From an uncultured Clostridia bacterium (lineage in GTDB: Bacteria > Bacillota > Clostridia > Christensenellales > DTU072), in the NCBI GenBank assembly GCA_944362765.1, contig CALVTP010000014.1:1-37380 (forward strand): a stretch of DNA of 37,380 nt, in the 5' to 3' direction. The notes beneath the pieces were generated by a model. It searched no databases and was not told the DNA's origin. It was given only the letters and a program-made list of their open reading frames with translations. Both the position numbers and the translations under genes were made by a program. Position 1 is the first letter of the stretch, and each line of letters starts with the position of its first letter. Below are positions 8,901 through 37,380 of this stretch, one piece after another.

Positions 8901-9450
8901 CGCGTCCGGGGAGTACTCCGGAATAAGCTTCACCGTCATTGTCTCCCGCGCGGTTGCAGCCGACACCTCGGTGACTTTTCAGGGGAACGCCTTAAAGCTT
9001 ACCGATTCGGTGGTATCGGGCGTAAAATTGATAACTGTCGCTATTCTTCCCGGGCTTAGCGGAGAATTGGCGTTTTGGGTGCAGGGGCAGAAGGTGTACG
9101 GCTTGGAACTGACATTTATCCTCTCCGTTGACGACACTCCGGACGAGCCCGAAGCGCCGGACGATCCCGAAGCGCCGGACGATCCCGAAGCGCCGGACGA
9201 TCCCGAAGTTCCGGGCGAAGGCGAACTTCAGCCGGGCGGTAACACACAAGGCGGCTCCTCGGGTAACGCCAACGGGGGAGGAAGTTCCGGTAACGGAGGC
9301 GGACAGGGATCCGGTCAGGCGGTCAATGTAAGTCTCAGCGACGAAGGTAAAAAGACGCTGGTCATAGTCGGCTCCTCTGTGGGCGGCGCAGTGGTTCTGG
9401 CAGGGGTAATAATTCTTGTCGTCGTGCTGACCAAAAAGAAGAAAAAGTAG
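2944..9450 (+). CDS. Giant surface protein with GLUG-like and MBG/Ig-like repeats, C-terminal TM anchor
   Basis: From ATG 2944 the product is 2,168 residues. The N-terminus MIKKLTPILIFFSF starts a good signal peptide ending near LCSC or FSAAA, so it could be either a lipoprotein or a signal peptidase I substrate. The frame is open to GTG 2893 (2,185 residues), but neither start has a convincing ribosome site; I prefer 2944 because it puts the basic residues beside the hydrophobic core. The first third carries GLUG-like beta-helix segments (GTLDGRGHAIVGF, GVLDGNGNAVTGL, IRNITL). The rest is a string of MBG/Ig-like sandwiches marked by YVYGDD, Y.G.P and AGEY/AGTY motifs and repeated ...KK or ...PY strand ends. 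A D/P/E repeat and Gly/Ser linker lead to a TM helix and KKKKK. No LPXTG was seen. It is likely an adhesin or cell-surface fibre. Confidence 0.8.
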   Translation: MIKKLTPILIFFSFILTLSLCSCVDFSAAASEVTPEESASVVYVDSEADFLEMLNYGGIYGGTYILRTDIYLDRYYAENDVLRFSYFSGTLDGRGHAIVGFRATPSVVRYTSAGEAPGASGSGEGSGGEPLYENAFVSSFLGWNQGTIKNLKLVDLELKASSDDVKDEDLVFAPIGINDGTIQNVEVLFSVNTPESTTATYYPLTYLNRGSELGCVSVSELPNSKKITAGEGEPTAGEDTNFFYEINSNASSGTPPQAVDDLFSAAYALYSSDQAGKKLDGDVNLYNSTFFEGKEDALKKLNELAKGTKFGYFNAGSYTLTGIPVSGGSEVLLSGTAPTKGDGSEEAPYEISSVEKLVYLNGNSVAGKYYMLTANISLAGYKIDSGSLLGDFHGVLDGNGNAVTGLTAPLASAVGAGSVIRNITLDFSCPNTAALQSVKGRLEKITATGTAKVFADFAGGSGSGISVMKTGEQGYIASFSGTITELTGVRSYADKFYRTGDSGSQKTLNGITNCYQDNAEWGVTIDTDAKVSDSYKADADDVNRLIVSTESNAINPLSSAGWAFGSGCGFAMKKGSDSIELVFPEDRAEYKSVPVFRKGSAVVVPYASSIWQFSGNETTLEDDFYITDLNKYIADNYLGIEEPDAEYTWTNSSGGVIGENELVPASGYSGDDMLHLKYYSEYHLFNLSLARINTSWVMYGTIIEFAYNGNKFFVDYSDKIQFLTDYLTEDSAGAFGYKELKLTVSSGDDVFIDTSDPNKAAGIISKPGVYTLTISAEGTASTTPTKAQYTFEIIEGTIPGSALSGCLLEERAGEITSGGFSEDTAYEFDPGFEDLEIVLSEDFPLNVNGFRLEIAYKIIRYKDRFGTETGNISGMKIGAAGTYTLILTLRATNFNDYVSDEVSYTVLPAQKTITADNLIGMEYGSSLPEELYGRGSGQGDLQNYPLEITETNYSQFSFPGDYFLRYVVSGYSENDYVFRYSDGKGGLHDEYGTLYFEVSSKKVTFKELKDEGVFTGYETVYNQKEHSLAFNPDNFPYVAGDPYIGRYVFETCYAEVKDSGIDNSRKEPFWYIDAGEYNVNLISLALLENSKWSNNYSIDTTEDNFINAKLTINKRGLTLTADDRQQDYGSLPIAPSDYAFTLSATDPDYPIADYIEEIENEISFDTHYSIECDYEQFDLPGKFDIIVTKKSDLGNFNLEVEKGSLTINKIDLSDTENFDIVREYVYDFETVDIKFKGSYNPDNIDEEFKSEGEFFAAGYPKYYNNGSENVMNQAPEDANPDGESYIFEFAAANTDVFTDDVVRIEFTIKRFTPEFYVRLWHDNQYLPLDEGEKYFFDGSDYRLSVRADDLGTAFGDLFNGVVTYIKNGDRENPVTTEYNNFVFMEPATYTEIIFTLTSKVSRNVDGGSVGLESFTLHKAELKPEKTDYTAVYNGKNRYSELGEVLNVAWGNPEGYPVTMEYSVFRVNPSGGQSSVGTEEVRYPGEYFITFSESNLYTFGGVLKLNITPYSVKADFAAEEKPYAYYGEVYWERGRLYCPGYSYSSGGFTGYTRLILALTDEYLGHFGVTSDYAPENGNAEPFIYTIEGAVPVTAEDQVTGERVNIIEFVVLNGEDAFEVKHAEVSLNYESLKTSYVYGDDIASSIKGSLDTKGVRVPAEDVKIIFDSGVEDSTKLNAGEHTALITLSEESTKNYIWTGGCTFTFTIEKKKLYYFVDEKKVQATDPLPEYASDDLYIYTSEYTSDDLSAINIPVGVTASFILPEGIEGEGVLNEGTYTVTVVFSGESADNYLFIARNGSGKLTVELNTLPQNIALSETEYTYTGDPIALKWENLPERASVGNVPTDAGEYRGIVLYIECPGYASEERKFDFSVAPAVPEVNIENLELEFESGRRLSDGEIRGSAYITGADGERKAVSGSFSLVGSDPTLKYGSVNAFTASFTPDDIENIESVSGVTFHVNAYISEEKKREYFSVTVLKGDGETAESVTASGEYSGISFTVIVSRAVAADTSVTFQGNALKLTDSVVSGVKLITVAILPGLSGELAFWVQGQKVYGLELTFILSVDDTPDEPEAPDDPEAPDDPEAPDDPEVPGEGELQPGGNTQGGSSGNANGGGSSGNGGGQGSGQAVNVSLSDEGKKTLVIVGSSVGGAVVLAGVIILVVVLTKKKKK
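8121..8179 (+). repeat. In-frame 36-bp duplication inside the giant surface-protein gene
   Basis: A 23-nt segment starting CGAATAC and ending GATGACCTTT occurs at 8121-8143 and again at 8157-8179 with two differences. The 36-nt period adds 12 codons and duplicates an SDDL/TSE motif. It looks like a recent slippage event inside one Ig-like domain. Confidence 0.6.
9142..9213 (+). repeat. Four 18-bp tandem repeats encoding the Asp-Pro-Glu stalk
   Basis: Four consecutive copies of GACGATCCCGAAGCGCCG (9142, 9160, 9178, 9196) encode a DDPEAP stalk just before the Gly/Ser linker and membrane anchor. The first copy has GAG for GAT and the last ends GTTCCG. Such repeats can change copy number and so stalk length. 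Confidence 0.85.
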
Positions 9451-12441: not shown

Positions 12442-12471
12442 TTGACAAACCGGAGCAAGCGGGAATATACT
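12442..12471 (+). promoter_or_regulatory. Promoter for leaderless transcription of the CDF gene
   Basis: TTGACA (12442-12447) and TATACT (12466-12471) are 18 nt apart, and the ATG begins at 12478, only 6 nt past the -10. Transcription should therefore start at or within a base or two of the start codon. No Shine-Dalgarno sequence precedes the ATG. Confidence 0.65.
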
Positions 12472-12477
12472 CTCGTT

Positions 12478-13659
12478 ATGAAGATTTTCGAACCGCTGAA
12501 AAAGACATTTATAAAGGATTATAAAAATACCCGTGACGCCACGGTGCGTTTCCGCTACGGAGTGACCGCGGGAATTTTCGGCATCGTCACCAATGTCGTT
12601 TTGTTTATAATGAAAGTGGTGGTGGGGATAATTTCCCGCTCCGTTTCGGTAGTTGCGGACGCCGTCAACAACCTTTCCGACGCCGGCTCGTCGGGGGTGA
12701 CGCTTATCGGTTTCAAGCTCAGCAATCGCCCCGCCGACAAAGAACACCCCTTCGGGCACGCCCGCTACGAATATATAACAGGACTCGTGGTGGCGTTCAT
12801 AATTTTGATAATCGGCGGCTCGCTTCTGAAATCTTCCGTCGAAAAGCTCATCACTCCCACCCCGATAGAAGCTTCCGTCTGGACGGCGGTAATTTTGGGG
12901 ATAAGCATCCTTTTGAAAGGTTTACAAGGGCTGATGTACCGTGATTTCGGAAAAAGTATCTCTTCCACTTCGCTTTTGGCGTCGGCAGCCGATTCGCGAA
13001 ACGACGTCATATCGACCTCGCTTGTCCTTATCTCGACCGTAGGAGCCATCTTCTCCCCCGACATCTTCACCATTGTCGACGCCGCAGTAGGTCTTGCCGT
13101 TTCGCTGTTTATATTAGTTTCCGGGATAAAGCTCGTAAAAGAGACGATAGATCCGTTGCTTGGCGGCAAACCCGACAAGGAACTTGTCGATTATATCCTG
13201 AAAAAAGTGTCATCTTACCCCGGGATTCTGGGAGTTCACGATCTCATGGTGCATAACTACGGACCCGAGAAGAGCTTTGCCTCCCTTCACGCCGAAGTGG
13301 ACGCCGCCGAAGACGTCATGAAGTCGCACGACCTTATCGACAACATCGAGCGCGACTTCCGTTCCGAAGGCATCTTCATGGTAATACATATGGATCCCGT
13401 CGTCACCGACGACCCCGAATTGAACGACATGAAAAACGAAGTCGCTTCGCTTATAGACGAAAAGTACTCCGGGAAACTCACCCTCCACGATTTCAGATTG
13501 GTAAAAGGGGTGACTCACACCAATGTCCTTTTCGACGCCGTCGCTCCTTATGACATCCGCGTCACCGCCAAGGAGCTTTCCGATTACCTTTCCGAACATA
13601 TCCGAAGGGAAGGAAAAATATACTATTACGTCATAAATATCGACCGCGAGTTCAATTGA
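12478..13659 (+). CDS. Cation diffusion facilitator (CDF) family metal exporter
   Basis: This 393-residue protein has the normal CDF layout: six TM helices in the first ~220 residues, then a cytoplasmic dimerisation domain. Key motifs are VVADAVNNLSDAGSS in TM2, HPFGHARYEY after it and AADSRNDVIST in TM5. The inferred transport-site set is Asn64, Asp68, Asp172 and Asp176. An Asn-Asp-Asp-Asp set resembles manganese-exporting CDFs such as MntE rather than the His-containing zinc type, so Mn2+ is my best guess. The frame is open upstream to TTG 12442, but that region is the promoter; family members begin near MKIF, so ATG 12478 is chosen. It is an inner-membrane antiporter that probably protects against metal excess. 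Confidence 0.9.
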   Translation: MKIFEPLKKTFIKDYKNTRDATVRFRYGVTAGIFGIVTNVVLFIMKVVVGIISRSVSVVADAVNNLSDAGSSGVTLIGFKLSNRPADKEHPFGHARYEYITGLVVAFIILIIGGSLLKSSVEKLITPTPIEASVWTAVILGISILLKGLQGLMYRDFGKSISSTSLLASAADSRNDVISTSLVLISTVGAIFSPDIFTIVDAAVGLAVSLFILVSGIKLVKETIDPLLGGKPDKELVDYILKKVSSYPGILGVHDLMVHNYGPEKSFASLHAEVDAAEDVMKSHDLIDNIERDFRSEGIFMVIHMDPVVTDDPELNDMKNEVASLIDEKYSGKLTLHDFRLVKGVTHTNVLFDAVAPYDIRVTAKELSDYLSEHIRREGKIYYYVINIDREFN

Positions 13660-19419: not shown

Positions 19420-22400
19420 ATGTCCGTTAAAATGTCGAAGAAGAATATTGTTAAAATTTCACTGGCGGCGCTGTCCGTTTTTATAATGTTTTCGATTGCA
19501 ATGACGGCTTGGGCGCTGACAAAGGGGGAAGCGGATACGTCGATAACGGCGACAGCCGCGGAAACGGGGTCTACAAAATTATTGACAGCTCCGAAATTCG
19601 GTACAAACAATATAGAAAACGCCGGGACGTACGCAATTCCCACAACGACAACGAATAATATTGCCGATCATATAGCTTTTACAATCGATTTTCCCGTCAA
19701 CGACAATTATGACGAAACGGGCGGCAACGGTTATTACACAAACCTTAACCCCGATTACGCTGTGGCTTATGCGCTGATAGACGAAAACGTCGATGTCACC
19801 ATACGACTCACATTCGAGACCGACGGTATCGTCGGGATAAGAGCAAAATGGGGGGACGAACCGGCGGGAGAACTGCAAAGAATAAACGGAAACTCCACGG
19901 TCAGCACAACTCATAGCGGCGGTTCAAATCCCGGGACTCTTTCTTTTGAGGTATTGGCACCGAGGTCGGAAGGCTATACCGCTACCGGAATTAAACCGCA
20001 AAGCATATCCGTTACCGCCAAGACGGACACCAACGCAGTCAACGTTTACGACGGCACCTGGCAGGTCACCGTAAGCGGTAACGACAGGGCGACGGAATCT
20101 TACGACGCGGGAACGCCGGACGCCGATATTCCTTACATAAAAATCGGCGACAAAGTCAATATCAAATATGTTTTTGCAGCCAACAAGCCCGAATTCAGTC
20201 AGCTTTTCACGACGATATTCCGTCCGGACGGCACACCGGGAAGCTGTATTGATTGGACGGAAAATTCCGGAAGGAGCGCTCTTGTCAGGTCGGATACCGA
20301 CGTTAGTTCATATGTGTATTATAAATACGGCGGCACGCAGAGTGTCTCAAACGATATATATTACGGCATCGAAACGACATTTATCGCGCAGGCGCAGCTT
20401 TCCAGTCTCACCGGTGATTCCGTGGAGATTCAGGCGCGCATCCCTTCTTCAAGATACAACAATGTAGAATATTTGGATCAGGGAAGTGCGATAACGGTGA
20501 AGGTGGACTGCACTCCCCCGTCGATACCGCGGCTGACAACTTCTCCGGAGGCAGGTTATGTATTGGGTAACAGCATCCGCGAAGGGCTGTGGTATACATC
20601 CCGGCTTGCTCAGCCGCAATACGAGTCCGTGACGGCGAGCGCCTCGGTAGGCGCGGCGGAAAGGGTCTATGCCTTCGTGGTCAACGCCGGTCTCGGCATT
20701 ACCACCGTAGAAGGCATTATCGCTCAGCTGAATTTACGTCCGGACGTTCCGCTGGACGAAACAGGTTTTACTTATACCGTGGGTTCCGAATATACGGCGA
20801 CCAGGCAGGATCTCGGGGAGTTTTCCAATGCCCCGAACGCCGACAAGGAAGAAATCGATTTCGGGGCGGAAACAGGGAAATTCAATCCCGTCAATCCGGG
20901 GGAGATGGGTTTATTGCTGGTTGCCGTCGACGGGGCGGGGAATTACAGTTATTGGCTCTATTCCGCGTCCGGCAGCAGCGGTGACGGCGTCCAGAGCGCG
21001 TCGCTGAGGGTGGACTGGACCGAACGGACGATAGTGCCGTCCTTCACCGTGCCGGGCTCCGAAGATCCCGTGCAGGGTACGGAGGCAGGCACTTATGCGT
21101 CGGTATACGTGTTGGCGGGCGACTCCTACCACGACGAAAACGGTAACTTCACCGGCGGAGTTTTCCTTCCCGGAGGCAACCTGAATGCGGCGGCAATAAC
21201 TTACTCCGTCAAACGCGTCCGATACATAACGCTTAGGGTGGTGATGAGCCCCGCCCAATACAACGCTTTCACGATAGTCAGCTATAACGCCGAAAGCACC
21301 GGACGCGGGGGCGAGCCGGTATTTTCGGAGATGGAGGCGAACGGCGTCGTTTACCGCTACTTCGATATCACCTTCCCGACGGATTCCGGCGAGGCGAACT
21401 CGTGGTGGGGAAGCTATGCGGGGGAAGGGGAAGACAGTTATTATGCCTATAACAGGTTTTTAAGTGCCCGTGTCAACGCAAGGGTGATACCGACTCTTGC
21501 CGAAGGCGCCGACCAACTCGAATTTTATAACGGCATACCGCGGGAGATTTCGACCGGCGGCGTGACGATGACAATGTACGACGGCAGCGAGCTCGGGGGC
21601 ATTCAGCCCGAAGTAGCCATCGAATATTTCAAAAGGCTGACGATGGTGTTTTACAGTAACGTTAACGCCAACGGTACCAATATTTCGCCGGGCGGCTCCA
21701 TCGAGGTCGACGGCGTCGAAATTTTTTCCGACTCCGCGAGGGACATGAATACGTTTATGCGCCCCGGGATGCGGTTTGATTTCGAAGTTTCCGACGGCAA
21801 AGGCGGTACGATAACAAGAACGTTCTATATTTTCTCTCTGATAGAAAGCAATTGGGAGTGGGAAGTCGACGATTCGGGACAGCCGCTCACACGCGCGACG
21901 CGTACGGCGTACGTGATGGAGCTTACCGCGCCCAACGCCACGGGCGGCTTTATAGATGCAGGCACGTACTATTATAGATTGTTTGTAAACGACGACGCCG
22001 ACTCCAACTTCTATTACGGCGAGACGATAGCGGAGTTCACCATTTCTCCCGCCACGGCAAATCCGAACAATGCGGCGGCTTATAACCGGCTTACTTACGG
22101 GCAGTCGCTGGACGAGCTGAAGTTCAGTACCGTTCTTAACGACAACGTTACCGTTATCTATCCCGAAATACCATCAGGTTACGGAGATGACGACAACCTC
22201 TTCATCACCGGACCGGACAAAACGAAATATCCTTTCGTCACGATAGGCGATGAACCCTACCCGATGTATTACTCCGTGGGCGGCACCACTTATTATTATA
22301 CGGTGGGCGGAGTATACGGCGTTTTCAATATAATAACTCCTTCGTCGGGTTCAGCCGATTATATGTTGCCGGGAACAGTGAACGAGATCCACCTGGTGGT

Positions 22401-25400
22401 AGAGTTCGTGCCGATGACGTTGTCTTTTACGTCGCAGGTGATTGCCGATAATTACAGCCAATTTTTCAAGTTCTTCTATGACGCAAAAACCTCAGGCGGA
22501 GCTACCGAATACATCGTCAAGGAAGGCGCGCCTCATGCGGGGAACTACTCGGCGACACGCTTTGAGGTAAATATTTCGATAGATAAACGCGAAATCGAGC
22601 TTTCGCCCGACGACGAAAACTATCTGGGCTCCGCGGAGGACGGGCGCTTCGAGTATACCTACGACGAAATGCAGCACATTCCCGTATTCAAAGGGGAGTG
22701 GACTTCCGGCGGGGAAGAGATCGTGCCCGGCGAAGAGCTTGACCTGACTATGAAATTTTATCTCTTCGACGACGACGGCGATATTTCGAGCGAAATCAGC
22801 GGATTCCCGCAATATGCAGGTTCTTACAGGGTCGCGGTTTCCGTCAATTCCGGCAATTGCAACTATGTAACCGCCGGGGAAGCCTTCTTTATGCTGACTA
22901 TTCTGAAACAGAAGGTGACGTTGACGCTTACGACGACGGGTTCGAACGAAGACGGCTCCGGATATGTCGGCGGAAGCGGTTCGCTGACGTTCGGAGGAGT
23001 GTCGGGCACCCGTTACGACTACTCTCACGAGCTCCGCTACTACTATAACCACCTCGGCACGCCGGAATTCAAGGTGGTAAACGAAAACGGCTTCGAAGTG
23101 GGGACGGCGTTTACCTATCAATTGACGAGGGTGCGCTACTTTAATGAAACGGGCATCGAAGTCGACCTTGCCTCCGAGGAGATCTTTGACGCAGCCGGTA
23201 CGATATACCCGACCGGTTCATATCCCGCGGGAGTATATATTCTTACGATAGGCGTCGGCTCCGAAAATCACGAAGTCGATCCCGAAAATCCGATGGTATT
23301 GCGATACAATATCGTTCAGGGGAATTATAACAACAATACCGAATACTTCAACCTGATAGAGCCTACGATAAGGCAGACTTACGGCGATATTGCGTTAGGG
23401 GCGGCGCATATGGAGTTCGGTATGAGCCTTATCGACGCCCGCTCGGCGATGGACGGCGGCTCGGTTTATTTCAACTCCTACTCGATCACGGGCGGCATCA
23501 GAGAGCCGGTTGCCGGCTTGTTCTTCTTCGAAAGCGAGGAGGATTACCAAGAAAGGTACCCCGATTACACATATACATATACCGACAAAGACGGCGAAGA
23601 ACTGACTGTTCTGGATGTCAGGTATAACTCCGGCGGCTCGAGGTATGCTTCCCACTTTGTGACGATGTATTGGATGGCGGGCGTCTATAATGACGGCGAG
23701 TTCATACCCGATTATAACTTCATGCGCGTCGAAAGAACGGTGGAGATTATCGTGGCGAAGGGCTCGGTGGATTTAAGCGGCGTTACGGCTACCGAAATTA
23801 TATACGGAGAAAAATTGAATGCTTCGCGGTTCGGCGGCACCGCCCTAACCCGCAGCGGAAACAGGGCGTTTGAGGTGTCGAAGAACGGAGAGGCTTCGGG
23901 CTTAGGAAGTATTTCCTTCACTACCCCCGATTTTATCCCCGCCGGCGGGACATATTCCGCGGTGGTCAACTTTTTCCCGGACGATACTGCAAGATATTAT
24001 TCTTCGGAGTCCGGTTTGGTCAGCGTAAAGGTTTTGGCGCGCGAGACAGTCGTTACCTTTATTCCGACCGGGAACGCGTTGACGCCGGACGACCTTAACG
24101 GCGAGATAACCGATACCCTCGAAAACGCGCTGTATCGTATCTATGGCAGTGCGTTTACGAACCCGTTGTTCGAAATGCGTGCCGAAGCCGTCGACGGGCG
24201 GCTGGAAGCGGCGGAGAATATCCCGACGGGAACCGTCGACCGCGTGTTTACCTACTATATTGAAGGCAGCGAAAGCGATCACGACTTCGAGTACGAAGGA
24301 AAATACTATAAAAGGGCAGATATGTCCGCCACTACCGATGTGGGAAGATATTTTGTCCGCATCGAACTGACAGATGAGAATTATTCCGGCGCGGCTTTTG
24401 CGGAGTTCTACGTCATAAAAGCGACGCTGACGCCGCAATACGGCTATATTCCTAATTATACGGTGGAATATTCCGATGTTATTAACGATCTTCGAATCGG
24501 CGGCTCCGTCGAAAGTTCGGCGGGCGCCGGCGGCGTTCTGACGGTGTTCGAAGGCTTCTTTACGATAACGGGCATACTCGTCAGGGGCGCCGACGGCTCC
24601 GTAACGGTGGCGGAGCTTCCCGATAACTACAATGCGCTTCCCGTCAACTCCGAGGCGCTGCTTGAAAATGTCAGGGTGGCGTTCAGTCCCGACGTAAATG
24701 AGGACGTATATCTTAAAAATTTCCGTCCCTTCGAAAGTAATTATACTTTGACGGTGACTAGAAAAGATATCTCCGAAAATATCGTCATTGACGGTCTGTC
24801 GGAAGGGGTTTCGGAAAAAGTCTTCAATAACGACGATAAATTCCTCTCGCTTGCGACGACGGCGGAAGGTACCTTCGACGCCGATCCGAAGGGCGAAGGC
24901 GTTTCGGTGAGCTTTGTTTACTATGCGGACGGCGCACTTGCCGTCGCAGGCGTCACCAACGCCGGCAGCTACCTCGTGACGGCAAAAGTAGTCGAAGAAG
25001 GCTCCGACTATTGCGGCGAGGTGAGCTTTGAATTGATTGTGGCTCCGCACGAAGTGTGGATAGCAAACGAAGCGGTATCGGACGGCAAAGTCCTTACGCC
25101 GTACACCGGTACGACATATGCTTTCCTCCCCGAGTTTGAGTTTAAAGAGGGGGAAGAGATAGTCGGCGTCGATCCCTCCGCATTGCCGTATACGGTATCC
25201 TATTTATTATATAATTATCCGAACCCCATCCCGGAGCCCTATGAAATAGGGAGCTACCGCATGGATATAGTCATCGGGAATACCAACTATATTGCACGGG
25301 CGGCGGACGGTACGGATACCTCTTCCGGTGTCAGCCTGGGGCTCGATATTCATCCTTGCATTACGGCTCTCGGCAATACCGAACAGACCTATAAGCCCGA

Positions 25401-28400
25401 AGGGAAGCCCGATCCCGTTACGCCGATTTATACGGCAGGGCACCCGGAGCTCAATTATTTGGTTTCTTACTTCGATGCCGACGGCAATGAGGTAAGCGTC
25501 GAAAATGCGGGCGAATATAAAGTCGTCATAAAGTATGTCGGCGTCAACGGGCTGAACTACGAATACGTCGGCACCCTCACCGTAAATCCTCTGGAAGTCA
25601 CCGGTTTCCTGCAAGAAACTTATCGGCATGTCTATGACGGGTCGGAGTACAGAATCGAAAAACAATACGTTTTGCAATATTCCCTTCAGACGATAGCCGA
25701 ATTTTCCTATTATGACGAAGACGGAAACAAAACAGAAAATCCCGTAAATGCCGGCGTCTATACCGTGAAAGCCGTAGTGCCGGAAGGGGAAAACTTCGCG
25801 GGCTCGGACGAATGCCTGCTGAATATCTCCCCCGCGGCTCTTAAAATGACGGGAAGATTGCCGTCGATAACGATGTACTACGGCTCCGACAAGGAAATAT
25901 TCAACGGTATTCTGAAAGAGATGGGCGGCACGTGGTCGTTCGTAAACGGGTATAACGAGGTAATTCCGGGCGCTTTTGTCATCGACGAAAGCGATGATAC
26001 GGCAGTGCTTCTGCCTACCTTCGGAACAGGTACCAGAAGAATAAAAATAGTCTTTAAACCGGGGCTGTATGTCGACTCTGAGGAAGGGAAACTTTACGCC
26101 GTCAATTATTCGGAGTACGCCGCAACCGTTTCTGTCAATATATTACAACGTGACATAAGCGATGCAATCAGGATAGCGGGCGAGCCGGAATATAATCCGG
26201 AGCGCGACGCGTATATCATCGAAAGCTCGTTTACCGGCGCTTCGCAACCACTTTCCTATATCGTTACGGACGGCGTCGAGGATTATTCCGTGCAGGTAAC
26301 TTTGACGTATAACGGTTCGAAAACGGCGCCGAGAGCGGCGGGAGAGTATCGTGTCGGAGGATACGTCAGTGACGCAGCGTACAGCGGAGAATTCAAAGGC
26401 GTCCGACATGAAACGGACGAAGACGGGAATATCGTCTATAAGCCGCTCCTGTTTATAATTGACTCCGCAAAGCCGATAATAGACTACTCGGGCGTCAGAG
26501 TTACGATAGACGGAACGCAATACAGCCGCGTGCCGCTTGATACCGAAATCACCATAGACATGATTTCCGGTTTGAAGGCAGGCATACCCGGCATCGACTC
26601 CATAGAAGGGAAATGGTCTTTGGTGGACGGCAAGGCGACGATTTCGAAAGCCAATGAAAATTACGTCAAAGTACGCTTTGCGCCAAACGACCAGAGTTCT
26701 TACTATACCATAACCGCCGAAATCGTAATAATGGGTGACGGCGTCGATCCGGAGATAATATTTAACAACGTCGATACTACTTTCACATACGGAAAGACGT
26801 TGAAAGAAATACTTAGTGAATACGACTTCTCAGCCAACATCGGAGGGGAATTTACCTTCTATTCCGCAAACGGCGCGATCGACGGGGACTACATTCCTTC
26901 GACAAACGAGACTCTTACCTATACCTTCACCCCGAGTGCGGAAAATATTGAGGTATTCAATGTCATATCCGGAACATTCAAGCCTGTCGGCGGCAAAAAG
27001 GAGCTTACTGTAGGTGAGGACGTAACTTTAAACGCCTTCGGGTATTTCTTCCTGCATGACGGAAATGAATACGCCGAGGGTGACCTGAACTTCGTCTTCG
27101 GGATAACCGGACAAGACGATGCCGACATGACGGAAGGCTTCGGGTATGAAGTATTTAACTTCGCCGCGATATCCTTGGAAAACCCAGTGGCGGCGGGCGG
27201 CACTATCCAAACCCGTATAGAAATCGCGTTTACTCATCCGAACTATGTGCTGGTCGATGAAAACGACGGCGACTATTTATATGTGCTTTCAAGCGTGCAC
27301 GTCTATTTCAAAGTCACGGATATCGATTATAACGAAAGCAAAACCTATGACGGCGAAGCGCCGACGGAGGAGGAGCTTGAAATCCGCGCGGGCGGCACGG
27401 AAACAACCGTCGGCTTTGTCATTGACGAGGTCAGCCGTGACGGAAAAGTCATAGAAGACGGCTTGGCGGGCATAGTCGGAGCAGGGGAGTACATTATAAA
27501 AGTGCACATCGAAGGAAGCTCCGCAGAAGATATGCTGAGCGGGAATGCGGAGCAGAAATACTACGGCGTCTTCGAGCTTCCGTATACGGTGGAGCCAGAG
27601 GATCTTAGCGACTATATTGTCATTTACGGCACCGAAAAAACCTACGGAGAGACGGTAAGGGTGTACGGAGTCCTTAACGGCATAGAGATAGGAGAAGAAT
27701 TCGGCTTCGATATCAGATACTATGATTCGCAAGGTGCTTTGTTGAGCGCGGTTCCCGTCGACGCGGGAAATTACTCCGTGGAAGCTGCCATTTCCGGGAA
27801 TACAAATTACACCGGTTCGGCGCGTGCGGATTACATTATAAATCAAGCCCCGGCTACGATAACCTTTACGGGTTCAGGCGCCGGCGGATACTCTTTCGAC
27901 TACGACGGTCTGAGTAAGAGAGCCACCGTCAGCGTTTCAAACAACCTGACGGAGTCCGGAGTGGCTATTACATATTATAAGGGAACGAGCGTCGTCACTG
28001 CTCCCGTCGACCCCGGCACTTACAGAGTGGTAGCGCAAATAACCGACAAGAACTATTACGGTTCAGCCGAGACGACGCTGACGATAAACAAGGCGCCGCT
28101 TCAATTGACCACCACGCCCGAGGTTTCCGGCATCACGTACGGCACAAAGGTGAGCGCTGCGGTGGTTTCCGACAACTTCGTCGTCCACACCGTCGGCTTC
28201 AACTCGACCGTTGACGGAAAGTTTGTACCCGTCAACCCCGACGAGATACTTCCCGCAGGCACTCACTCCGTCAGATACATATTCAAGCCCGAACTCGACT
28301 TTTACGAGGAGCTGACGGTGACTTTCAACGTCACCGTCGAAAAAGCGGTTATTCAGATTACCGTTCTGAACCCCGACGAAAACAACAGGTTGGTCTACGA

Positions 28401-30507
28401 CGGCACGCCGAAGGAGCCCGTAGTCATTTCGGATCAGGGCATAGGTTACAGGAAGGAGTTCCGTAACGAAGCGGGCACACTGCTTTCATCCGCCCCCTCC
28501 GAAGCGGGGAACTATTCGGTAACCTATACCATAAACGACCCCAACTACACCGGCAGCAACATCGTGGAATTTACCGTTCACAAGGCGGAATTGTCGGTTG
28601 AAGCGTCCGTGCTTCCGGAGTCGGTTCAGGTCAGGTACGGCGCCAAACTTTCAACCGGCATTTTCAGCGGAACAATGGTATATGTTCCGGGCGCGGGCGG
28701 AGTAGCCGGCAGCTTTACCTTCGTCGAGGGCGATATAGTGTTGGGAGATGTGGGGCTTTACGAAGGAAGAGCCTACATTTTCCGTCCGAACAACTCCCAA
28801 AACTATGCCGAGTACAGAGGAACGGTCACCGTCAACGTCATTAAAGCCGACGCCATAGTGACCGGAAAAGATGTCTTCGAATTCGTCTACGGCGACGATT
28901 TGAGAAGCGTTGCGGCGGCGCCTTACCTCAGCTTCACGACTTCGCCTGCCAATCTGACGCTTGTCTCCGAAGAGTACAACGAGTGGCTTAATGGGCTTGC
29001 AAACGGCGTCACGGACGGGCTCGTCTCCGAGACTTTCGAAGCCAGGGTGGAGAATAAAAACTACACCGGTACCAGAAAGTTTACGATAATTATCAATCCC
29101 CGTCCGATAAACCTCATATACAGAATCGCTGCTGCGGGCGGCGCAATGACCGAGGTAAAAGATCAGATAACCGTCAATTTCGGCGCATCCGCCGATTTTA
29201 AGGTCGCAATCGATCCCTCGTCCATTCCCGAAGGACTCCTCACGAATGAGGAACTCGCCGAAATGGAAAACGGACTCATCGTCCGTTACCATGACTACGT
29301 CGAACTCATTTCGGAATTGGGTGAAGGTTCTACCGTCAAGCCGAACTCCGTCGGAGAATACATCGTTTCCGTAAGTACGGGGCTTGCAAAGCTGTTCACG
29401 GTATCGGAAGACACTAAGTATATCAACTATACCGTAAACCGCGGCAAGGTCGAATCGATAACCTTCAATACCTCGCTGCTGACGCAGACCTACGGAAACG
29501 CCATTACGATACCTAGCGTCACCACCGTGCCGTCCGGCGTTTCGGTGGAAGTTCGTTTCGTTGGGCTGGAGTATGTTCCTTCGGCTGCCGGAGAATATCC
29601 CATTTCCGCCGTCGTTACGGACTCCAATTACAACCCCGACACGGTAAACGGCATGTTGAGGATACTCCCGAAAGAGATCCCCATCGTCAACCCCGTAGCT
29701 TACGATAAAGCTTACGACGGTTTGTCGAATATCCGCGTCACGGCAGAGCTCGGCGGCATTATCGTCGGCGACGAAGTGACGCTGTCGCTGACGGCTATGA
29801 CCGAAGGCGGCTCCGCAGAAGTCGGCGTGCACAGGGTGGTGCTGACTTCGTGGACGCTTGGCGGTCTGGACGCAGCAAACTACACCGTCAGGGAACCCAT
29901 CTACAATTTGACCGCAAAGATAACTTCCAACATGGTGGTCGACCCCAATACGGAATCCTATATCACCACGGACGGCGGCTTCTCTTCGAATATTACCGTC
30001 GATTTCACCGAGGTGAAAGAGGTGAGGAACGAAACCAATATCTTCACGAGGCTGTTCGGGCAAAAAGCCACCGTTCAGACGATATCGGTGCGCGAGAACG
30101 GTCTCGATAAGGTGCTGGACAGGCGCGTCAAGTTCTACGTCCGCATTCCGGACGAGTACCTCGGGTGCAAAAATCTCACGGTAGAAGGGCTCGGGAATCT
30201 TTCCGGTATCACCAACTTTACGAGGGAAGGCAATTACATCACCTTCTATGCCGATTCCTCCGGTGAAATAGTCTTCTATACCACCGATTTCCCGTATTGG
30301 GTGATAATAATCATTGCCGTTTTGGCAATAGTGATACTCGGATTGATAGTGATATTGATAGCTGCGCCGCTGAGGAGAAGAAAACGTATCCCCGACGGAG
30401 CGAGAAAGATATACAAGTGGCGCGAAAACGCCGGAAGTGTGGAGGAGGCTTACAGGCGCAAAGTCAAGGCGCAGATCGAGGACAGGAAACGCAAATGGAG
30501 ATATTAA
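19420..30507 (+). CDS. 3,695-residue MBG-repeat surface protein with C-terminal TM anchor
   Basis: This is by far the largest gene in the window. The start is well supported: GAGGT (19408-19412) lies 7 nt before ATG, and the product opens with a signal peptide (MSVKMSKKNIVKISLAAL..., core ending near residue 33). The first ~900 residues contain less regular beta-rich domains, including a CTPPSIPRL segment. After that come many MBG/Ig-like units of roughly 80-170 residues, recognisable by ITYG/QTYG/VEYS starts, AGEY/AGNY/AGTY cores, NYTGS/NYYGS and closing strands ending in K-A or P. Near the C-terminus PYWVIIIIAVLAIVILG forms a TM helix (about 3625-3650), followed by a 44-residue, strongly basic cytoplasmic tail. 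There is no LPXTG, so sortase attachment is unlikely. It could be a fibrous adhesin or intercellular tether. It heads the operon with the next three genes. Confidence 0.85.
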   Translation: MSVKMSKKNIVKISLAALSVFIMFSIAMTAWALTKGEADTSITATAAETGSTKLLTAPKFGTNNIENAGTYAIPTTTTNNIADHIAFTIDFPVNDNYDETGGNGYYTNLNPDYAVAYALIDENVDVTIRLTFETDGIVGIRAKWGDEPAGELQRINGNSTVSTTHSGGSNPGTLSFEVLAPRSEGYTATGIKPQSISVTAKTDTNAVNVYDGTWQVTVSGNDRATESYDAGTPDADIPYIKIGDKVNIKYVFAANKPEFSQLFTTIFRPDGTPGSCIDWTENSGRSALVRSDTDVSSYVYYKYGGTQSVSNDIYYGIETTFIAQAQLSSLTGDSVEIQARIPSSRYNNVEYLDQGSAITVKVDCTPPSIPRLTTSPEAGYVLGNSIREGLWYTSRLAQPQYESVTASASVGAAERVYAFVVNAGLGITTVEGIIAQLNLRPDVPLDETGFTYTVGSEYTATRQDLGEFSNAPNADKEEIDFGAETGKFNPVNPGEMGLLLVAVDGAGNYSYWLYSASGSSGDGVQSASLRVDWTERTIVPSFTVPGSEDPVQGTEAGTYASVYVLAGDSYHDENGNFTGGVFLPGGNLNAAAITYSVKRVRYITLRVVMSPAQYNAFTIVSYNAESTGRGGEPVFSEMEANGVVYRYFDITFPTDSGEANSWWGSYAGEGEDSYYAYNRFLSARVNARVIPTLAEGADQLEFYNGIPREISTGGVTMTMYDGSELGGIQPEVAIEYFKRLTMVFYSNVNANGTNISPGGSIEVDGVEIFSDSARDMNTFMRPGMRFDFEVSDGKGGTITRTFYIFSLIESNWEWEVDDSGQPLTRATRTAYVMELTAPNATGGFIDAGTYYYRLFVNDDADSNFYYGETIAEFTISPATANPNNAAAYNRLTYGQSLDELKFSTVLNDNVTVIYPEIPSGYGDDDNLFITGPDKTKYPFVTIGDEPYPMYYSVGGTTYYYTVGGVYGVFNIITPSSGSADYMLPGTVNEIHLVVEFVPMTLSFTSQVIADNYSQFFKFFYDAKTSGGATEYIVKEGAPHAGNYSATRFEVNISIDKREIELSPDDENYLGSAEDGRFEYTYDEMQHIPVFKGEWTSGGEEIVPGEELDLTMKFYLFDDDGDISSEISGFPQYAGSYRVAVSVNSGNCNYVTAGEAFFMLTILKQKVTLTLTTTGSNEDGSGYVGGSGSLTFGGVSGTRYDYSHELRYYYNHLGTPEFKVVNENGFEVGTAFTYQLTRVRYFNETGIEVDLASEEIFDAAGTIYPTGSYPAGVYILTIGVGSENHEVDPENPMVLRYNIVQGNYNNNTEYFNLIEPTIRQTYGDIALGAAHMEFGMSLIDARSAMDGGSVYFNSYSITGGIREPVAGLFFFESEEDYQERYPDYTYTYTDKDGEELTVLDVRYNSGGSRYASHFVTMYWMAGVYNDGEFIPDYNFMRVERTVEIIVAKGSVDLSGVTATEIIYGEKLNASRFGGTALTRSGNRAFEVSKNGEASGLGSISFTTPDFIPAGGTYSAVVNFFPDDTARYYSSESGLVSVKVLARETVVTFIPTGNALTPDDLNGEITDTLENALYRIYGSAFTNPLFEMRAEAVDGRLEAAENIPTGTVDRVFTYYIEGSESDHDFEYEGKYYKRADMSATTDVGRYFVRIELTDENYSGAAFAEFYVIKATLTPQYGYIPNYTVEYSDVINDLRIGGSVESSAGAGGVLTVFEGFFTITGILVRGADGSVTVAELPDNYNALPVNSEALLENVRVAFSPDVNEDVYLKNFRPFESNYTLTVTRKDISENIVIDGLSEGVSEKVFNNDDKFLSLATTAEGTFDADPKGEGVSVSFVYYADGALAVAGVTNAGSYLVTAKVVEEGSDYCGEVSFELIVAPHEVWIANEAVSDGKVLTPYTGTTYAFLPEFEFKEGEEIVGVDPSALPYTVSYLLYNYPNPIPEPYEIGSYRMDIVIGNTNYIARAADGTDTSSGVSLGLDIHPCITALGNTEQTYKPEGKPDPVTPIYTAGHPELNYLVSYFDADGNEVSVENAGEYKVVIKYVGVNGLNYEYVGTLTVNPLEVTGFLQETYRHVYDGSEYRIEKQYVLQYSLQTIAEFSYYDEDGNKTENPVNAGVYTVKAVVPEGENFAGSDECLLNISPAALKMTGRLPSITMYYGSDKEIFNGILKEMGGTWSFVNGYNEVIPGAFVIDESDDTAVLLPTFGTGTRRIKIVFKPGLYVDSEEGKLYAVNYSEYAATVSVNILQRDISDAIRIAGEPEYNPERDAYIIESSFTGASQPLSYIVTDGVEDYSVQVTLTYNGSKTAPRAAGEYRVGGYVSDAAYSGEFKGVRHETDEDGNIVYKPLLFIIDSAKPIIDYSGVRVTIDGTQYSRVPLDTEITIDMISGLKAGIPGIDSIEGKWSLVDGKATISKANENYVKVRFAPNDQSSYYTITAEIVIMGDGVDPEIIFNNVDTTFTYGKTLKEILSEYDFSANIGGEFTFYSANGAIDGDYIPSTNETLTYTFTPSAENIEVFNVISGTFKPVGGKKELTVGEDVTLNAFGYFFLHDGNEYAEGDLNFVFGITGQDDADMTEGFGYEVFNFAAISLENPVAAGGTIQTRIEIAFTHPNYVLVDENDGDYLYVLSSVHVYFKVTDIDYNESKTYDGEAPTEEELEIRAGGTETTVGFVIDEVSRDGKVIEDGLAGIVGAGEYIIKVHIEGSSAEDMLSGNAEQKYYGVFELPYTVEPEDLSDYIVIYGTEKTYGETVRVYGVLNGIEIGEEFGFDIRYYDSQGALLSAVPVDAGNYSVEAAISGNTNYTGSARADYIINQAPATITFTGSGAGGYSFDYDGLSKRATVSVSNNLTESGVAITYYKGTSVVTAPVDPGTYRVVAQITDKNYYGSAETTLTINKAPLQLTTTPEVSGITYGTKVSAAVVSDNFVVHTVGFNSTVDGKFVPVNPDEILPAGTHSVRYIFKPELDFYEELTVTFNVTVEKAVIQITVLNPDENNRLVYDGTPKEPVVISDQGIGYRKEFRNEAGTLLSSAPSEAGNYSVTYTINDPNYTGSNIVEFTVHKAELSVEASVLPESVQVRYGAKLSTGIFSGTMVYVPGAGGVAGSFTFVEGDIVLGDVGLYEGRAYIFRPNNSQNYAEYRGTVTVNVIKADAIVTGKDVFEFVYGDDLRSVAAAPYLSFTTSPANLTLVSEEYNEWLNGLANGVTDGLVSETFEARVENKNYTGTRKFTIIINPRPINLIYRIAAAGGAMTEVKDQITVNFGASADFKVAIDPSSIPEGLLTNEELAEMENGLIVRYHDYVELISELGEGSTVKPNSVGEYIVSVSTGLAKLFTVSEDTKYINYTVNRGKVESITFNTSLLTQTYGNAITIPSVTTVPSGVSVEVRFVGLEYVPSAAGEYPISAVVTDSNYNPDTVNGMLRILPKEIPIVNPVAYDKAYDGLSNIRVTAELGGIIVGDEVTLSLTAMTEGGSAEVGVHRVVLTSWTLGGLDAANYTVREPIYNLTAKITSNMVVDPNTESYITTDGGFSSNITVDFTEVKEVRNETNIFTRLFGQKATVQTISVRENGLDKVLDRRVKFYVRIPDEYLGCKNLTVEGLGNLSGITNFTREGNYITFYADSSGEIVFYTTDFPYWVIIIIAVLAIVILGLIVILIAAPLRRRKRIPDGARKIYKWRENAGSVEEAYRRKVKAQIEDRKRKWRY

Positions 30508-34325: not shown

Positions 34326-35591
34326 ATGGATACCGAAATGAAGATAGGATACGATCACGGAGAATTGGATTTCATTGTTCCGAACGGAAGACTTTTAGGC
34401 GTGTTGGAGCCCAACAAGGTTGAAATCGGCTTGACGGGAGCGGAGGCTGTGGAGTACGCCCTCGATCACCCGATAGGCGATGTAAAAGTCGAAGAGAAAG
34501 TTCGCCCGGGTGATAAGGTCTGCATAATTGCTTCCGACATCACCCGCCCGATGCCGTCGAGAACGGCTTTGCCGCCTCTTGTAAAAAGACTTAACGCCGG
34601 GGGAATACCCGATTCCGATATGGTGATAGTTTTCGGGCTCGGCAGCCACAGGAAGCACACCGAAGAGGAAAAGAAATATCTTATCGGGGAGCTTTACGGA
34701 CGGATAGAGTGTGTCGATTCCGACCCGGACGACGTCGTGAGACTCGGTGTTACGAAGCACGGCACTCCCGTGGATATATTCAGGAGGGTGGCGGAAAGCG
34801 ATTTTATCATCTGCACCGGGAACATAGAATATCATTACTTTGCGGGTTATTCGGGCGGCGCCAAGGCGGTGATGCCCGGCGTTTCCACTCCGGACGCCAT
34901 CCGTGTCAACCACAGCATGATGGTAGGTGCCGAGGCGTATGCCGGCAATATGCTTTCTCCCGTCAGACAGGATATCGAGGAAGCAGGGGATATTTTGGGG
35001 ATAGACTATATTTTAAACGCCGTTTTGGATGAGCACAAACAAATAATTTATTGCGTAGCGGGCGATGTCACGGCGGCTCATCGTCGGGGCGCGGCTTTTT
35101 TGGATAAATTATACAGGATTCCGCTTAAAGAGCAGGCGGACATAGTCGTGGTCTCTCCCGGAGGGTATCCGAAGGATCAGAATATGTACCAGGCGCAAAA
35201 GGCTTTGGACAACTCCAAACACGCCGTCAAAGATGGCGGTACGATAATCTGGGTGGCGGGCTGCAAGGAAGGGCTCGGCAGTGCTCTCTTTGAAAAGTGG
35301 ATGACGAGTTATTCTCCCGAGGAGATGATCGAAAACATCAGAAATGATTTCAAACTCGGCGCTCACAAGGCGGCTGCGATAGCCCTCGTCATGAAAAAAG
35401 CCGAAATCTGTTTGGTTTCCGAGCTTCCGGACGACTTTGTGCGCTCGATGGGGTTTATTCCCTTTTCTTCTCTCGAACAGGCATTCGCACAAGCTACCTT
35501 GAAACAGGGCGAAGATTCCACCGTCTACGTCATGCCGTACGGTGGCTCCACCCTTCCGATTTTCGAAGGCGAACAGCAAAAAATGCGTTGA
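34326..35591 (+). CDS. LarA-like nickel-pincer racemase (lactate racemase family)
   Basis: The 421-residue protein is LarA length and keeps residues that in Lactobacillus plantarum LarA bind the nickel-pincer nucleotide cofactor or substrate: Asp71 and Arg74 (SDITRPMP), His108 (GLGSHRKH), His170 and Lys180 (HYFAGYSGGAKAVMPG; the lysine attaches the cofactor), His196 (NHSMM), and Gln289 and Lys292 (YPKDQNMYQAQKAL). It should racemise or epimerise a 2-hydroxyacid; LarA homologues use several substrates besides lactate, so D/L-lactate is not assured. No larB, larC, larE or transporter gene is beside it, so cofactor synthesis must be encoded elsewhere. The start is uncertain: ATG 34326 or 34338, neither with a good ribosome site. 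Its stop codon overlaps the pheA leader promoter. Confidence 0.88.
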   Translation: MDTEMKIGYDHGELDFIVPNGRLLGVLEPNKVEIGLTGAEAVEYALDHPIGDVKVEEKVRPGDKVCIIASDITRPMPSRTALPPLVKRLNAGGIPDSDMVIVFGLGSHRKHTEEEKKYLIGELYGRIECVDSDPDDVVRLGVTKHGTPVDIFRRVAESDFIICTGNIEYHYFAGYSGGAKAVMPGVSTPDAIRVNHSMMVGAEAYAGNMLSPVRQDIEEAGDILGIDYILNAVLDEHKQIIYCVAGDVTAAHRRGAAFLDKLYRIPLKEQADIVVVSPGGYPKDQNMYQAQKALDNSKHAVKDGGTIIWVAGCKEGLGSALFEKWMTSYSPEEMIENIRNDFKLGAHKAAAIALVMKKAEICLVSELPDDFVRSMGFIPFSSLEQAFAQATLKQGEDSTVYVMPYGGSTLPIFEGEQQKMR

Positions 35592-35616
35592 CAAGCAGCA
35601 AAAAAAGATATATTAT
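35588..35616 (+). promoter_or_regulatory. pheA operon promoter
   Basis: TTGACA (35588-35593) is a perfect -35 that overlaps the racemase stop codon. TATTAT (35611-35616) follows at 17 nt. The leader-peptide ATG begins at 35623, only 6 nt past the -10, so the transcript should be leaderless or nearly so. Confidence 0.8.
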
Positions 35617-35622
35617 TTTAAT

Positions 35623-35697
35623 ATGAAAACAGCAACCTTCTGCTTTAACTTTTTCGGTTTTTTCGGATTTACCGGCAATGAAAACGGTATCGCTTGA
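35623..35697 (+). CDS. pheL: Phe-rich leader peptide of the pheA attenuator
   Basis: A 24-codon frame directly between the promoter and pheA encodes a peptide opening MKTATFCFNFFGFFGF and ending in TGA at 35695-35697. Seven of its 24 residues are Phe, six of them within 35644-35670. This is the design of the enterobacterial PheL leader, where a shortage of charged tRNA-Phe stalls the ribosome. No Shine-Dalgarno sequence precedes it, which fits leaderless initiation. Its stop codon lies just upstream of the antiterminator arm at 35699, so a ribosome that finishes translation would cover that arm. The peptide itself probably has no function once made. Confidence 0.85.
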   Translation: MKTATFCFNFFGFFGFTGNENGIA

Positions 35698-35698
35698 A

Positions 35699-35755
35699 GG
35701 TGCGCAATAAATTTTCAAAAAATTCGAAACCGCACCGAAAAAAGTGCGGTTTTTT
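35699..35755 (+). promoter_or_regulatory. pheA attenuator: competing antiterminator and terminator
   Basis: Terminator: AAACCGCAC (35727-35735) pairs perfectly with GTGCGGTTT (35744-35752) over an 8-nt A-rich loop, with the T-run at 35750-35755. Antiterminator: GGTGCG (35699-35704) is complementary to CGCACC (35731-35736), using the same bases as the terminator's left arm, with TTTC/GAAA as a possible upper stem. The two folds exclude each other. A ribosome stalled on the Phe codons leaves 35699-35704 free and allows pheA expression; one that reaches the stop at 35697 masks it and termination results. Confidence 0.85.
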
Positions 35756-35770
35756 CATAAAGGAGTGATT

Positions 35771-36910
35771 ATGAAAGCAACAGACGCCAAACTCAAAATC
35801 GACGCTATCGACGACGAAATAGCTTCGCTTTACGTTAAGCGCATGCAACTTGCCGCCGAAATTTTTTCCGACGCGAAGCGCGATGTCAGTGTTACCGACG
35901 GCACTTTGGTCGAAAAAGCCACGGTCAACAGAGTGACGAAGTCGATGCCCGACGACATGAAACTCTACGCAAAGCAGCTTTTCGACGCCATTTACAACAC
36001 GGCGCGAGCTTACGGCAGGGAGTCGCGCGGGCTTCCGTCGAAGGTGCGCACCGAAATAGACTTAGCCCTCGAAAAAGGGGAGGAAACTTTTCCGGTCTCC
36101 GCAACGGTAGCCTGTCAGGGAGTGGCGGGTGCTTACGCTCAGATTGCAGCCGATAAAATGTTCCCGATAGCCGACATCCTCTATTTTAAGGATTGGGACG
36201 CCGTCTTCGGCGCCGTCGAGAGGGGACTTTGCGACTTCGGCGTGCTCCCGATTGAAAACAGCTCCGTGGGTTCCGTCAACGCCGTTTACGACCTTATGCG
36301 AAAGCACAGCTTCCATATCGCCAGGGCGATCCGCCTCCGCGTCCAACATTACCTTCTCGCGAAACCCGGCACCGAAGCGAAAGACATAACCGAGATTTAC
36401 TCCCATAAGCAAGCCATCGAGCAATGCTCCGATTTTTTAAAAACAATTCCGGGTGTCAAAGTCACCATCGTCGAAAATACCGCTGTCGCCGCGAGGAAAG
36501 TCAAAGAGTCCGATTCCGCTTCGGTAGCGTGTATAGCTTCTGAATCCTGCGCCGGCATTTACGGGCTCAAAGTTTTGAAACAAAACATTCAGGACAACGA
36601 CTTAAACTATACCCGCTTCATAGCCATTTCAAAGGACATGCACCTCTATGAAGACGCCGATAAAATCTCAATTATGGTAAACCTTCCTAACGAAACCGGG
36701 AGCCTGAACCGCATTTTAAATAAGTTCTCCACATTAGGATTGAACCTCACCAAACTTGAAAGCCGACCGATGGGCAACACCGATTTTGAGTTTGCTTTCT
36801 ACTTTGATTTCGAAGGAAGAGTCGACAGACCGGAAGTCAAGAATCTACTCTCGGAACTCGAGAACGAATGCGTAAGGTTTATGTTCCTCGGTTCTTATAA
36901 ACAATTATAA
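35771..36910 (+). CDS. pheA: Chorismate mutase-like / prephenate dehydratase with ACT domain (PheA)
   Basis: The 379-residue protein makes phenylpyruvate from prephenate in phenylalanine synthesis. Residues 1-90 align with an AroQ chorismate mutase; about 110-285 are prephenate dehydratase, with CQGVAGAYAQ (115-124), GVLPIENSSVGSV (157-169) and the catalytic NYTRF (279-283); about 297-375 form the ACT domain with GSL (310-312) and ESRP (330-333), the Phe-binding motifs for feedback inhibition. The mutase half looks weak: the first catalytic Arg position appears to be Lys7 and the Asp-Arg-Glu segment is not recognisable. ATG 35771 follows AAAGGAG (35759-35765); the earlier in-frame start lies within the terminator and is rejected. 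Expression is set by the Phe-leader attenuator. Confidence 0.93.
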   Translation: MKATDAKLKIDAIDDEIASLYVKRMQLAAEIFSDAKRDVSVTDGTLVEKATVNRVTKSMPDDMKLYAKQLFDAIYNTARAYGRESRGLPSKVRTEIDLALEKGEETFPVSATVACQGVAGAYAQIAADKMFPIADILYFKDWDAVFGAVERGLCDFGVLPIENSSVGSVNAVYDLMRKHSFHIARAIRLRVQHYLLAKPGTEAKDITEIYSHKQAIEQCSDFLKTIPGVKVTIVENTAVAARKVKESDSASVACIASESCAGIYGLKVLKQNIQDNDLNYTRFIAISKDMHLYEDADKISIMVNLPNETGSLNRILNKFSTLGLNLTKLESRPMGNTDFEFAFYFDFEGRVDRPEVKNLLSELENECVRFMFLGSYKQL

Positions 36911-37043: not shown

Positions 37044-37380
37044 CCCGCGTATTGAGACGCTCTCGGGGTCGCCTTTCCGCGAAGTGTACAAAATTTATAG
37101 GTCTACACCCTATGGGCGCCTCCGGTCATGTACATCTTAGGCGGAGCGCGAAGCTCGTGGCTTGCCTCGCAACAACGCGTAGATTTGATTTATTATTGAG
37201 ATAGTTACCCGCTTTAACGGTCTCTGTTAAAGAAATAATGTTTCGAGTCAATCTGACGGTTCCGCTCCGCCTTTTTCGAACAAAAACAAAACCTTTATTG
37301 CTAGGTTGTTTTGTTTTTGTTCGAGGTTTCGCCGCAAGCGGCGACAAGGTGGTCGCTCTGCTCCGATTAGACTTAACCCA
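37044..37380. repeat. Palindromic repeat modules after pheA (array 3, right end cut by window)
   Basis: The block beginning CCCGCGTATTGAGACGCTCT is a diverged copy of the module at 15879 and 16253. It keeps CTCGGGG, TTTCCGCGAAGTGTA and GGTCTACACCCT but then departs from the others after about 37140. A 17-bp perfect inverted repeat, TCGAACAAAAACAAAAC (37276-37292) with 37308-37324, lies near the end. The only open frame here (minus strand) simply translates these repeats. No gene is supported. Confidence 0.7.

Follow-up and report, generated by a model that had tools for sequence, protein, structure and literature searches.

The pheA/pheL attenuator of Gammaproteobacteria is ribosome-mediated and operates through alternative 2:3 and 3:4 helices. 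In Firmicutes, T-box leaders (RF00230), located upstream of amino acid genes, sense uncharged tRNA. Leader-peptide attenuators are also on record in this phylum: Bacilli have a His leader (PMC2965389), and the ilv-leu operon of Staphylococcus aureus has a Leu-rich attenuator (PMC5794164). Candidate attenuators have been described in Actinobacteria (PMC1262725). Two types of leaderless leader peptide are presented in other reports: trpL of Sinorhizobium meliloti, whose transcript begins directly with the ATG, forms part of a transcription attenuator (PMC7298713), and the mycobacterial poly-Cys leaders (Canestrari 2020, as described in PMC9031893) regulate translation of downstream genes.

The present study concerns a 37,380-nucleotide stretch of DNA from an uncultured Clostridia bacterium (hereafter, the window), in which the pheA gene is very probably preceded by a ribosome-mediated Phe transcription attenuator, its leader being translated from a leaderless transcript. 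The features of the locus are collected in Table 1. The promoter (TTGACA/TATTAT) agrees with the consensus at 11 of 12 positions. Residues 112-377 of the pheA product match the prephenate dehydratase model NF008865 at its cut-off (219.1 bits against 219), and residues 9-376 match the chorismate mutase-prephenate dehydratase fusion model NF007910 with a score of 166.7, which is below the cut-off of 577. Upstream of the leader is a gene for a LarA-family racemase (34326-35591; NF052593, above cut-off). Elsewhere in the window, two very long frames of 2185 and 3695 aa (2893-9450 and 19420-30507) look repeat-like by eye; towards the C-terminus both have basic residues and a hydrophobic segment, and they perhaps encode large surface proteins. 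An inverted repeat with 16-nt arms (37277-37292 and 37308-37323) was noticed by eye near the contig end.

Table 1. Features of the pheA leader region, in window coordinates, and of the related aro operon, the coordinates of which refer to locus L081.
Feature	Position	Strand	Remarks
-35 box TTGACA	35588..35593	+	Shares bases with the stop codon of the LarA-family gene that precedes it
-10 box TATTAT	35611..35616	+	Spacer of 17 nt to the -35 box
Putative transcription start, first base (A) of the leader start codon ATG	35623	+	6 nt past the -10 box, T at -1
Phe-rich leader peptide MKTATFCFNFFGFFGFTGNENGIA-stop	35623..35697	+	24 codons, 7 Phe
Segment 1 (GC.ACCTTC)	35632..35640	+	Leader codons 4-6; possible protector helix with segment 2
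Segment 2 (GAAGGTGCG)	35696..35704	+	Overlaps the leader stop codon
Segment 3 (GAAACCGCACC)	35726..35736	+	Pairs through CGCACC with segment 2, or through GAAACCGCAC with segment 4
Segment 4 (GTGCGGTTTT) and U-run	35744..35755	+	3' arm of the terminator
Shine-Dalgarno sequence AAGGAG of pheA	35760..35765	+	Read from the sequence
pheA, chorismate mutase-prephenate dehydratase	35771..36910	+	Putative regulated gene; profile matches
aro operon with Tyr/Phe leader, L081	336-6137

An earlier note on this DNA had proposed a promoter, a 24-codon leader containing seven Phe residues, an antiterminator, a terminator and pheA, in that order, and its coordinates are right. It had also correctly recognized that the antiterminator and terminator folds share bases, segment 3 pairing either with segment 2 or with segment 4, and that the leader stop codon (ending at 35697) lies 1 nt before the antiterminator arm GGTGCG (beginning at 35699). 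Folded in isolation, the antiterminator, in which this arm pairs with CGCACC at 35731-35736, has a computed energy of -9.7 kcal/mol, equalled or bettered by 4 of 200 shuffles. The terminator, wherein 35726-35735 pairs with 35744-35753 and the U-run comes next, reaches -14.3 kcal/mol (z -4.7, none of 200 shuffles being equally good), and the 1:2 duplex in the window -11.1 kcal/mol (fraction of shuffles as good, 0.048). The entire leader (35623-35770) is unexceptional as a fold (z -1.67; 11 of 200 shuffles equally good), and the case for the pheA attenuator rests on comparison. A pattern scan flagged the pheA-leader terminator solely on the minus strand; in the window it returned 2 terminator-like sites, with 1.4 expected.

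All 13 genomes of the genus contain pheA, and the anatomy of the locus and its conservation can be followed directly among them. These genomes fall by eye into about three clades, such that a count of 13/13 does not represent 13 independent events. In each genome the gene is preceded by the same kind of promoter (TTGAC(A/T), a spacer of exactly 17 nt, and TATNAT or TATACT) and by a leader of 20-25 codons with 5-7 Phe each, beginning with ATG in 12 cases and GTG in one. Together the leaders contain 82 Phe codons (58 TTT and 24 TTC). The antiterminator core GTGCG/CGCAC and the terminator are likewise found in 13/13. By a fixed criterion, an aromatic leader occurs upstream of pheA in all 13 genus genomes; the pheA upstream regions examined in other families of the order (0 of 60) and in the other genera of this family (0 of 19) have none. 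For the order, pheA was located in 118 of 161 genomes, 9 of these in the family, and 60 of the remaining 109 were examined; for the family outside the genus, 19 of the 22 genomes with a pheA match were examined (G018, G030 and G039 were left out). In most of the 60 from other families, a leader is missing because a long frame ends shortly before pheA. A looser scan of the family outside the genus gave one chance frame, within the gene upstream (L037), and no Phe leader was seen at L009, which is also outside the genus.

The stretch around the leader is T-rich, and this composition would favour the view that a Phe-rich frame happens to stand beside an ordinary terminator by chance. Against this, it is the only Phe-rich frame (at least 5 Phe and at least 25% Phe) among the 433 short frames of 15-40 codons with distinct stops in the window, and the leader is kept throughout the genus and missing from the 60 and 19 pheA upstream regions outside it. 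We consider coincidence exceedingly improbable. Given a Phe frequency of 4.55%, the binomial probability of the leader's Phe content is 7e-5.

The alternative pairings are a property of the genus as well. Duplex computation yielded helices 1:2, 2:3 and 3:4 for all 13 leaders. When own-genome pairs were compared with pairs permuted among genomes, the latter were as good in 0/2000 cases for 1:2, 9/2000 for 2:3 and 0/2000 for 3:4, in a test that ignores kinship, which inflates such values. Relative to shuffles, helix 2:3 scores 0.03 or better in 12 of the 13 genomes (G001, 0.146), and helix 1:2 scores 0.01-0.081 in 11 of 13 (G001, 0.49; G005, 0.20). Helix 1:2, an addition to the two folds of the earlier note, could complete the classical 1:2, 2:3, 3:4 switch, but it is weak in G001 and G005, where it does no better than shuffles. 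In G009, a leader codon has changed from TTC to TTT and the stop codon from TGA to TAA, with preservation of the 1:2 pairing. Across the genus, 94.8% of the terminator cells are paired, and two pairs are altered on both sides. For the pheA 2:3 helix, 77.4% of the cells are paired and covariation is slight (1 pair, 2 cells; most measures no better than for shuffled sequences, in a MAFFT alignment with one row shifted), because its core is nearly invariant. The earlier note had expected related pheA upstream regions to carry conserved Phe-rich short frames with compensatory changes in both stems. The frames are indeed there in 13/13, and the terminator shows clear compensatory changes, the antiterminator slight ones. 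Its reading of the locus as a classical attenuator gains support from all 13 genus genomes.

We infer the start site, translation of the leader, ribosome stalling and the response to Phe as follows. RNA polymerase would take the first base of the leader start codon as +1, and the resulting 5'-terminal AUG would be where a ribosome loads. When Phe-tRNA is scarce, the ribosome would stall within the Phe codons at 35638-35670 and cover segment 1; segments 2 and 3 would then pair, the terminator would be blocked and pheA transcribed. When Phe is plentiful, the ribosome would reach the stop codon that overlaps segment 2, leaving segments 3 and 4 to pair, and transcription would end near 35755. If no ribosome loads, helix 1:2 would form and helix 3:4 would bring about termination.

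In all 13 pheA leaders the start codon follows the -10 box after 6 nt (8 genomes) or 7 nt (5 genomes), and a gap of about 6-7 nt is also seen in all 11 tested leaders of a second operon of the genus, the aro operon (see below). A Shine-Dalgarno 4-mer positioned 4-14 nt before the leader start was found in 0/13 and 0/11 of these leaders, respectively. Transcription usually prefers to start with a purine at +1 preceded by a pyrimidine at -1, and exactly this arrangement occurs at the pheA-leader start in 13/13 genus genomes. Since the start codon is located 6-7 nt past the -10 box, follows a pyrimidine and has no Shine-Dalgarno sequence, we place the transcription start at the leader start codon, which would make this probably a leaderless leader peptide.

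The same geometry recurs throughout the genomes. In the genus, a strict promoter pattern gave 108 matches with an ATG 5-8 nt past the -10 box, versus 41 at the shifted control distance of 9-12 nt, a few places being counted in both sets. Among the first 49 of the 108 matches, the gap is 6 nt in 24, 5 nt in 6, 7 nt in 9 and 8 nt in 10. The shifted distance was chosen as a control because a reversed-pattern control (3 versus 108 matches) was judged too lenient. In the window's own genome (G000), a looser promoter pattern produced 63 matches; 47 were examined, the other 16 having no intact start codon. Of the 47, 26 open frames of at least 100 codons, and all 26 have a pyrimidine at -1, versus 20 of 34 Shine-Dalgarno starts in the same genome (Fisher P 1e-4); the proportion is 21/39 when Shine-Dalgarno starts at loci of other genus genomes are included. 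These 26 leaderless-type genes (among loci L089-L133) include those for RuvC, UvrC, TilS, YggS-family and BirA-like proteins, and the RuvC and YggS matches start at residue 1. Judged from such patterns, leaderless transcription seems to be commonplace in the genus. The window also contains a gene for a CDF transporter (12478-13659) that looks leaderless, its promoter and start codon occupying 12442-12480 (TTGACA, 18 nt, TATACT, 6 nt, ATG).

The Phe attenuator could instead be a conventional one, the main transcript starting upstream of 35623, either at another promoter or as an extension of larA-like transcription, and its leader being initiated in some way other than leaderless. The larA-like gene does end (35591) about 30 nt before the leader on the same strand, and Shine-Dalgarno-like sites accompany some of the related aro leaders of other genera. 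This reading is nevertheless unlikely in our estimation, given a promoter fixed at 6-7 nt from the start codon and the absence of a Shine-Dalgarno sequence, both in 13/13, and the genome-wide excess of leaderless geometry combined with a -1 pyrimidine. Polymerases reading through from larA could in themselves yield some transcripts that are not leaderless.

Besides pheA, the leaderless reading extends to a sister system: one recurrent match to the leaderless pattern led to a second leader, MKKQNLFAYAYYFYFSYEVA-stop. It precedes the aro operon, which codes for DAHP synthase, prephenate dehydrogenase, EPSP synthase and chorismate synthase (aroF-tyrA-aroA-aroC) and ends with a chorismate mutase-shikimate dehydrogenase-shikimate kinase fusion gene; at L081 and L088, aroC is followed by this fusion gene and not by pheA. 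The aro operon is headed by a Tyr/Phe-rich leader in 13/13 genus genomes and in 33 of the 36 family genomes examined, the exceptions being G034, G039 and G014 (in the last of which the aroF match is partial). This set of 36 consists of 34 of the 37 genomes with aroF matches (G013, G025 and G028 were left out) together with G006 (L238) and G008 (L085). All 11 classified aro leaders of the genus are of the leaderless type. The 20 leaders from other genera comprise 8 of the leaderless type (L155 by its first ATG, and G032 by eye), 8 with a Shine-Dalgarno-like site (one of them weak, and L153 judged by eye) and 4 unclassified. Within a single family, therefore, the aro leader seems from these sequence classes to have switched its mode of initiation, and the Shine-Dalgarno-like leaders of other genera imply that a leaderless start would not be required for the mechanism. 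In a set of 28 aro leaders 2:3 covariation is stronger than in the pheA leaders, the native pairing beating all 5000 permutations (ignoring kinship), though a few of the 2:3 energies refer to the wrong stretch owing to misplaced hairpins. For L170 the terminator script returned nothing convincing, and in several further leaders it settled on hairpins that were too long or out of place.

The two leaders differ in composition in step with the content of their operons, being Phe-only for pheA and Tyr-leaning for aro within the genus. The Phe:Tyr counts are 82:3 in the genus pheA leaders, 36:61 in the genus aro leaders and 92:77 in the aro leaders of other genera; the shift between the two aro sets has a P of 0.0009, kinship being ignored. 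In the family outside the genus, aroF and pheA share a contig and a strand, with a few kilobases between them, in 19 of the 22 genomes with a pheA match (including G039 and G018, in which that match is partial), and on separate contigs in G020, G030 and G036; pheA is usually located downstream of aroF. In the genus, the two genes are on separate contigs in 11/11 genomes where both were placed, all these assemblies being drafts. It appears from this distribution that pheA once belonged to an aro operon under Tyr/Phe attenuation, moved out of it and acquired a separate attenuator responding to Phe only. The direction, from one mixed sensor to two, is what we infer from the distribution of the arrangements rather than from a tree. 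We lean towards a view in which joint Tyr and Phe leader attenuators are family-wide and have been split in the genus into a Phe-only and a Tyr-leaning one, both leaderless.

Composition also bears on the proposal that the frame is a gene for a small protein with a function of its own, the hairpin being its terminator and pheA being reached by read-through with no sensing of Phe. The frame is conserved and a terminator does follow it. Its length and flanking residues vary, however, whereas the density of Phe and the overlap with the alternative pairing are kept, and the Tyr content of the sister leader goes in step with the enzymes of its own operon. A small protein is therefore very unlikely, although somewhat less so than coincidence, and we retain the Phe attenuator.

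Other ways of sensing amino acids were considered in the same genomes. A T-box (RF00230) was rejected as an explanation at pheA, there being no match in the window or in G000. A lineage devoid of T-boxes, as G000 alone had suggested, was also rejected, since 31 of 38 family genomes and 8 of 11 sampled genus genomes have matches. Two genus cases were examined: one T-box (L239; G012:C6:99800-101300) is located upstream of a PALP-family gene according to Pfam, and another (L240; G009:C10:32200-33850) precedes a gene that is PALP-like by eye and that we take to be TrpB-like. A search for trpE (PF04715) gave a match in 0/7 genus genomes (control, 14/14), so there is no such gene to attenuate in those seven. 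At the 7 hisG loci (hisG was found in 7/7 genomes searched), no His-rich frame (10-40 codons with four or more His) was detected.

If the proposed attenuators are real, ribosome-mediated Phe/Tyr attenuation would reach a family of Clostridia in which T-boxes occur too, and two modes of sensing amino acid supply would coexist in one lineage. A two-amino-acid attenuator would moreover have divided along with its operon, the composition of the peptide tracking gene content. The sequence evidence for ordinary leaderless starts in this lineage bears on gene prediction, and a leaderless leader bears on attenuation without a Shine-Dalgarno site. To the features listed in the earlier note, the analysis adds the probable leaderless start, a possible 1:2 helix, the Tyr/Phe sister system and the apparent split of operon and sensor.

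No match at the gathering threshold was obtained in the window; RF01859 (Phe_leader) is the top Rfam match of the pheA leader by bits, though not by E-value (18.9 bits, E 0.63, gathering 55), and the leader is not a member by score. Among the listed titles and abstract openings, which came in part from capped lists, took in work on leaderless mRNA and covered few subscription papers, no Phe/Tyr leader of this kind was seen in Clostridia, nor, in a smaller part of these listings, a Tyr-sensing leader peptide. The contrast with T-boxes drawn in the earlier note is not absolute: T-boxes have no match in G000, yet occur in 31/38 family genomes. Its surprise at finding a leader-peptide attenuator in Firmicutes must also be tempered, as His (PMC2965389) and Leu (PMC5794164) attenuators are in print. 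These systems of Bacilli and S. aureus likewise employ leader peptides, but they are not directed at Phe or Tyr, and a leaderless start is unmentioned in the available portions of the two reports (PMC2965389, PMC5794164). The trpL leader of S. meliloti shares the leaderless leader peptide and differs in responding to Trp and in belonging to Alphaproteobacteria (PMC7298713). The mycobacterial poly-Cys leaders, as described in PMC9031893, are leaderless short frames that likewise sense one amino acid, but they concern Cys, translation and mycobacteria. Like Gammaproteobacterial pheA/pheL, the locus has a Phe-rich leader, a stop codon near segment 2, 2:3 and 3:4 helices and a prephenate dehydratase gene downstream; unlike it, the leader is probably leaderless and occurs in Clostridia. 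Firmicutes attenuators and leaderless leader peptides have each been published before, and a Phe attenuator with a leaderless leader would constitute a fresh variant.
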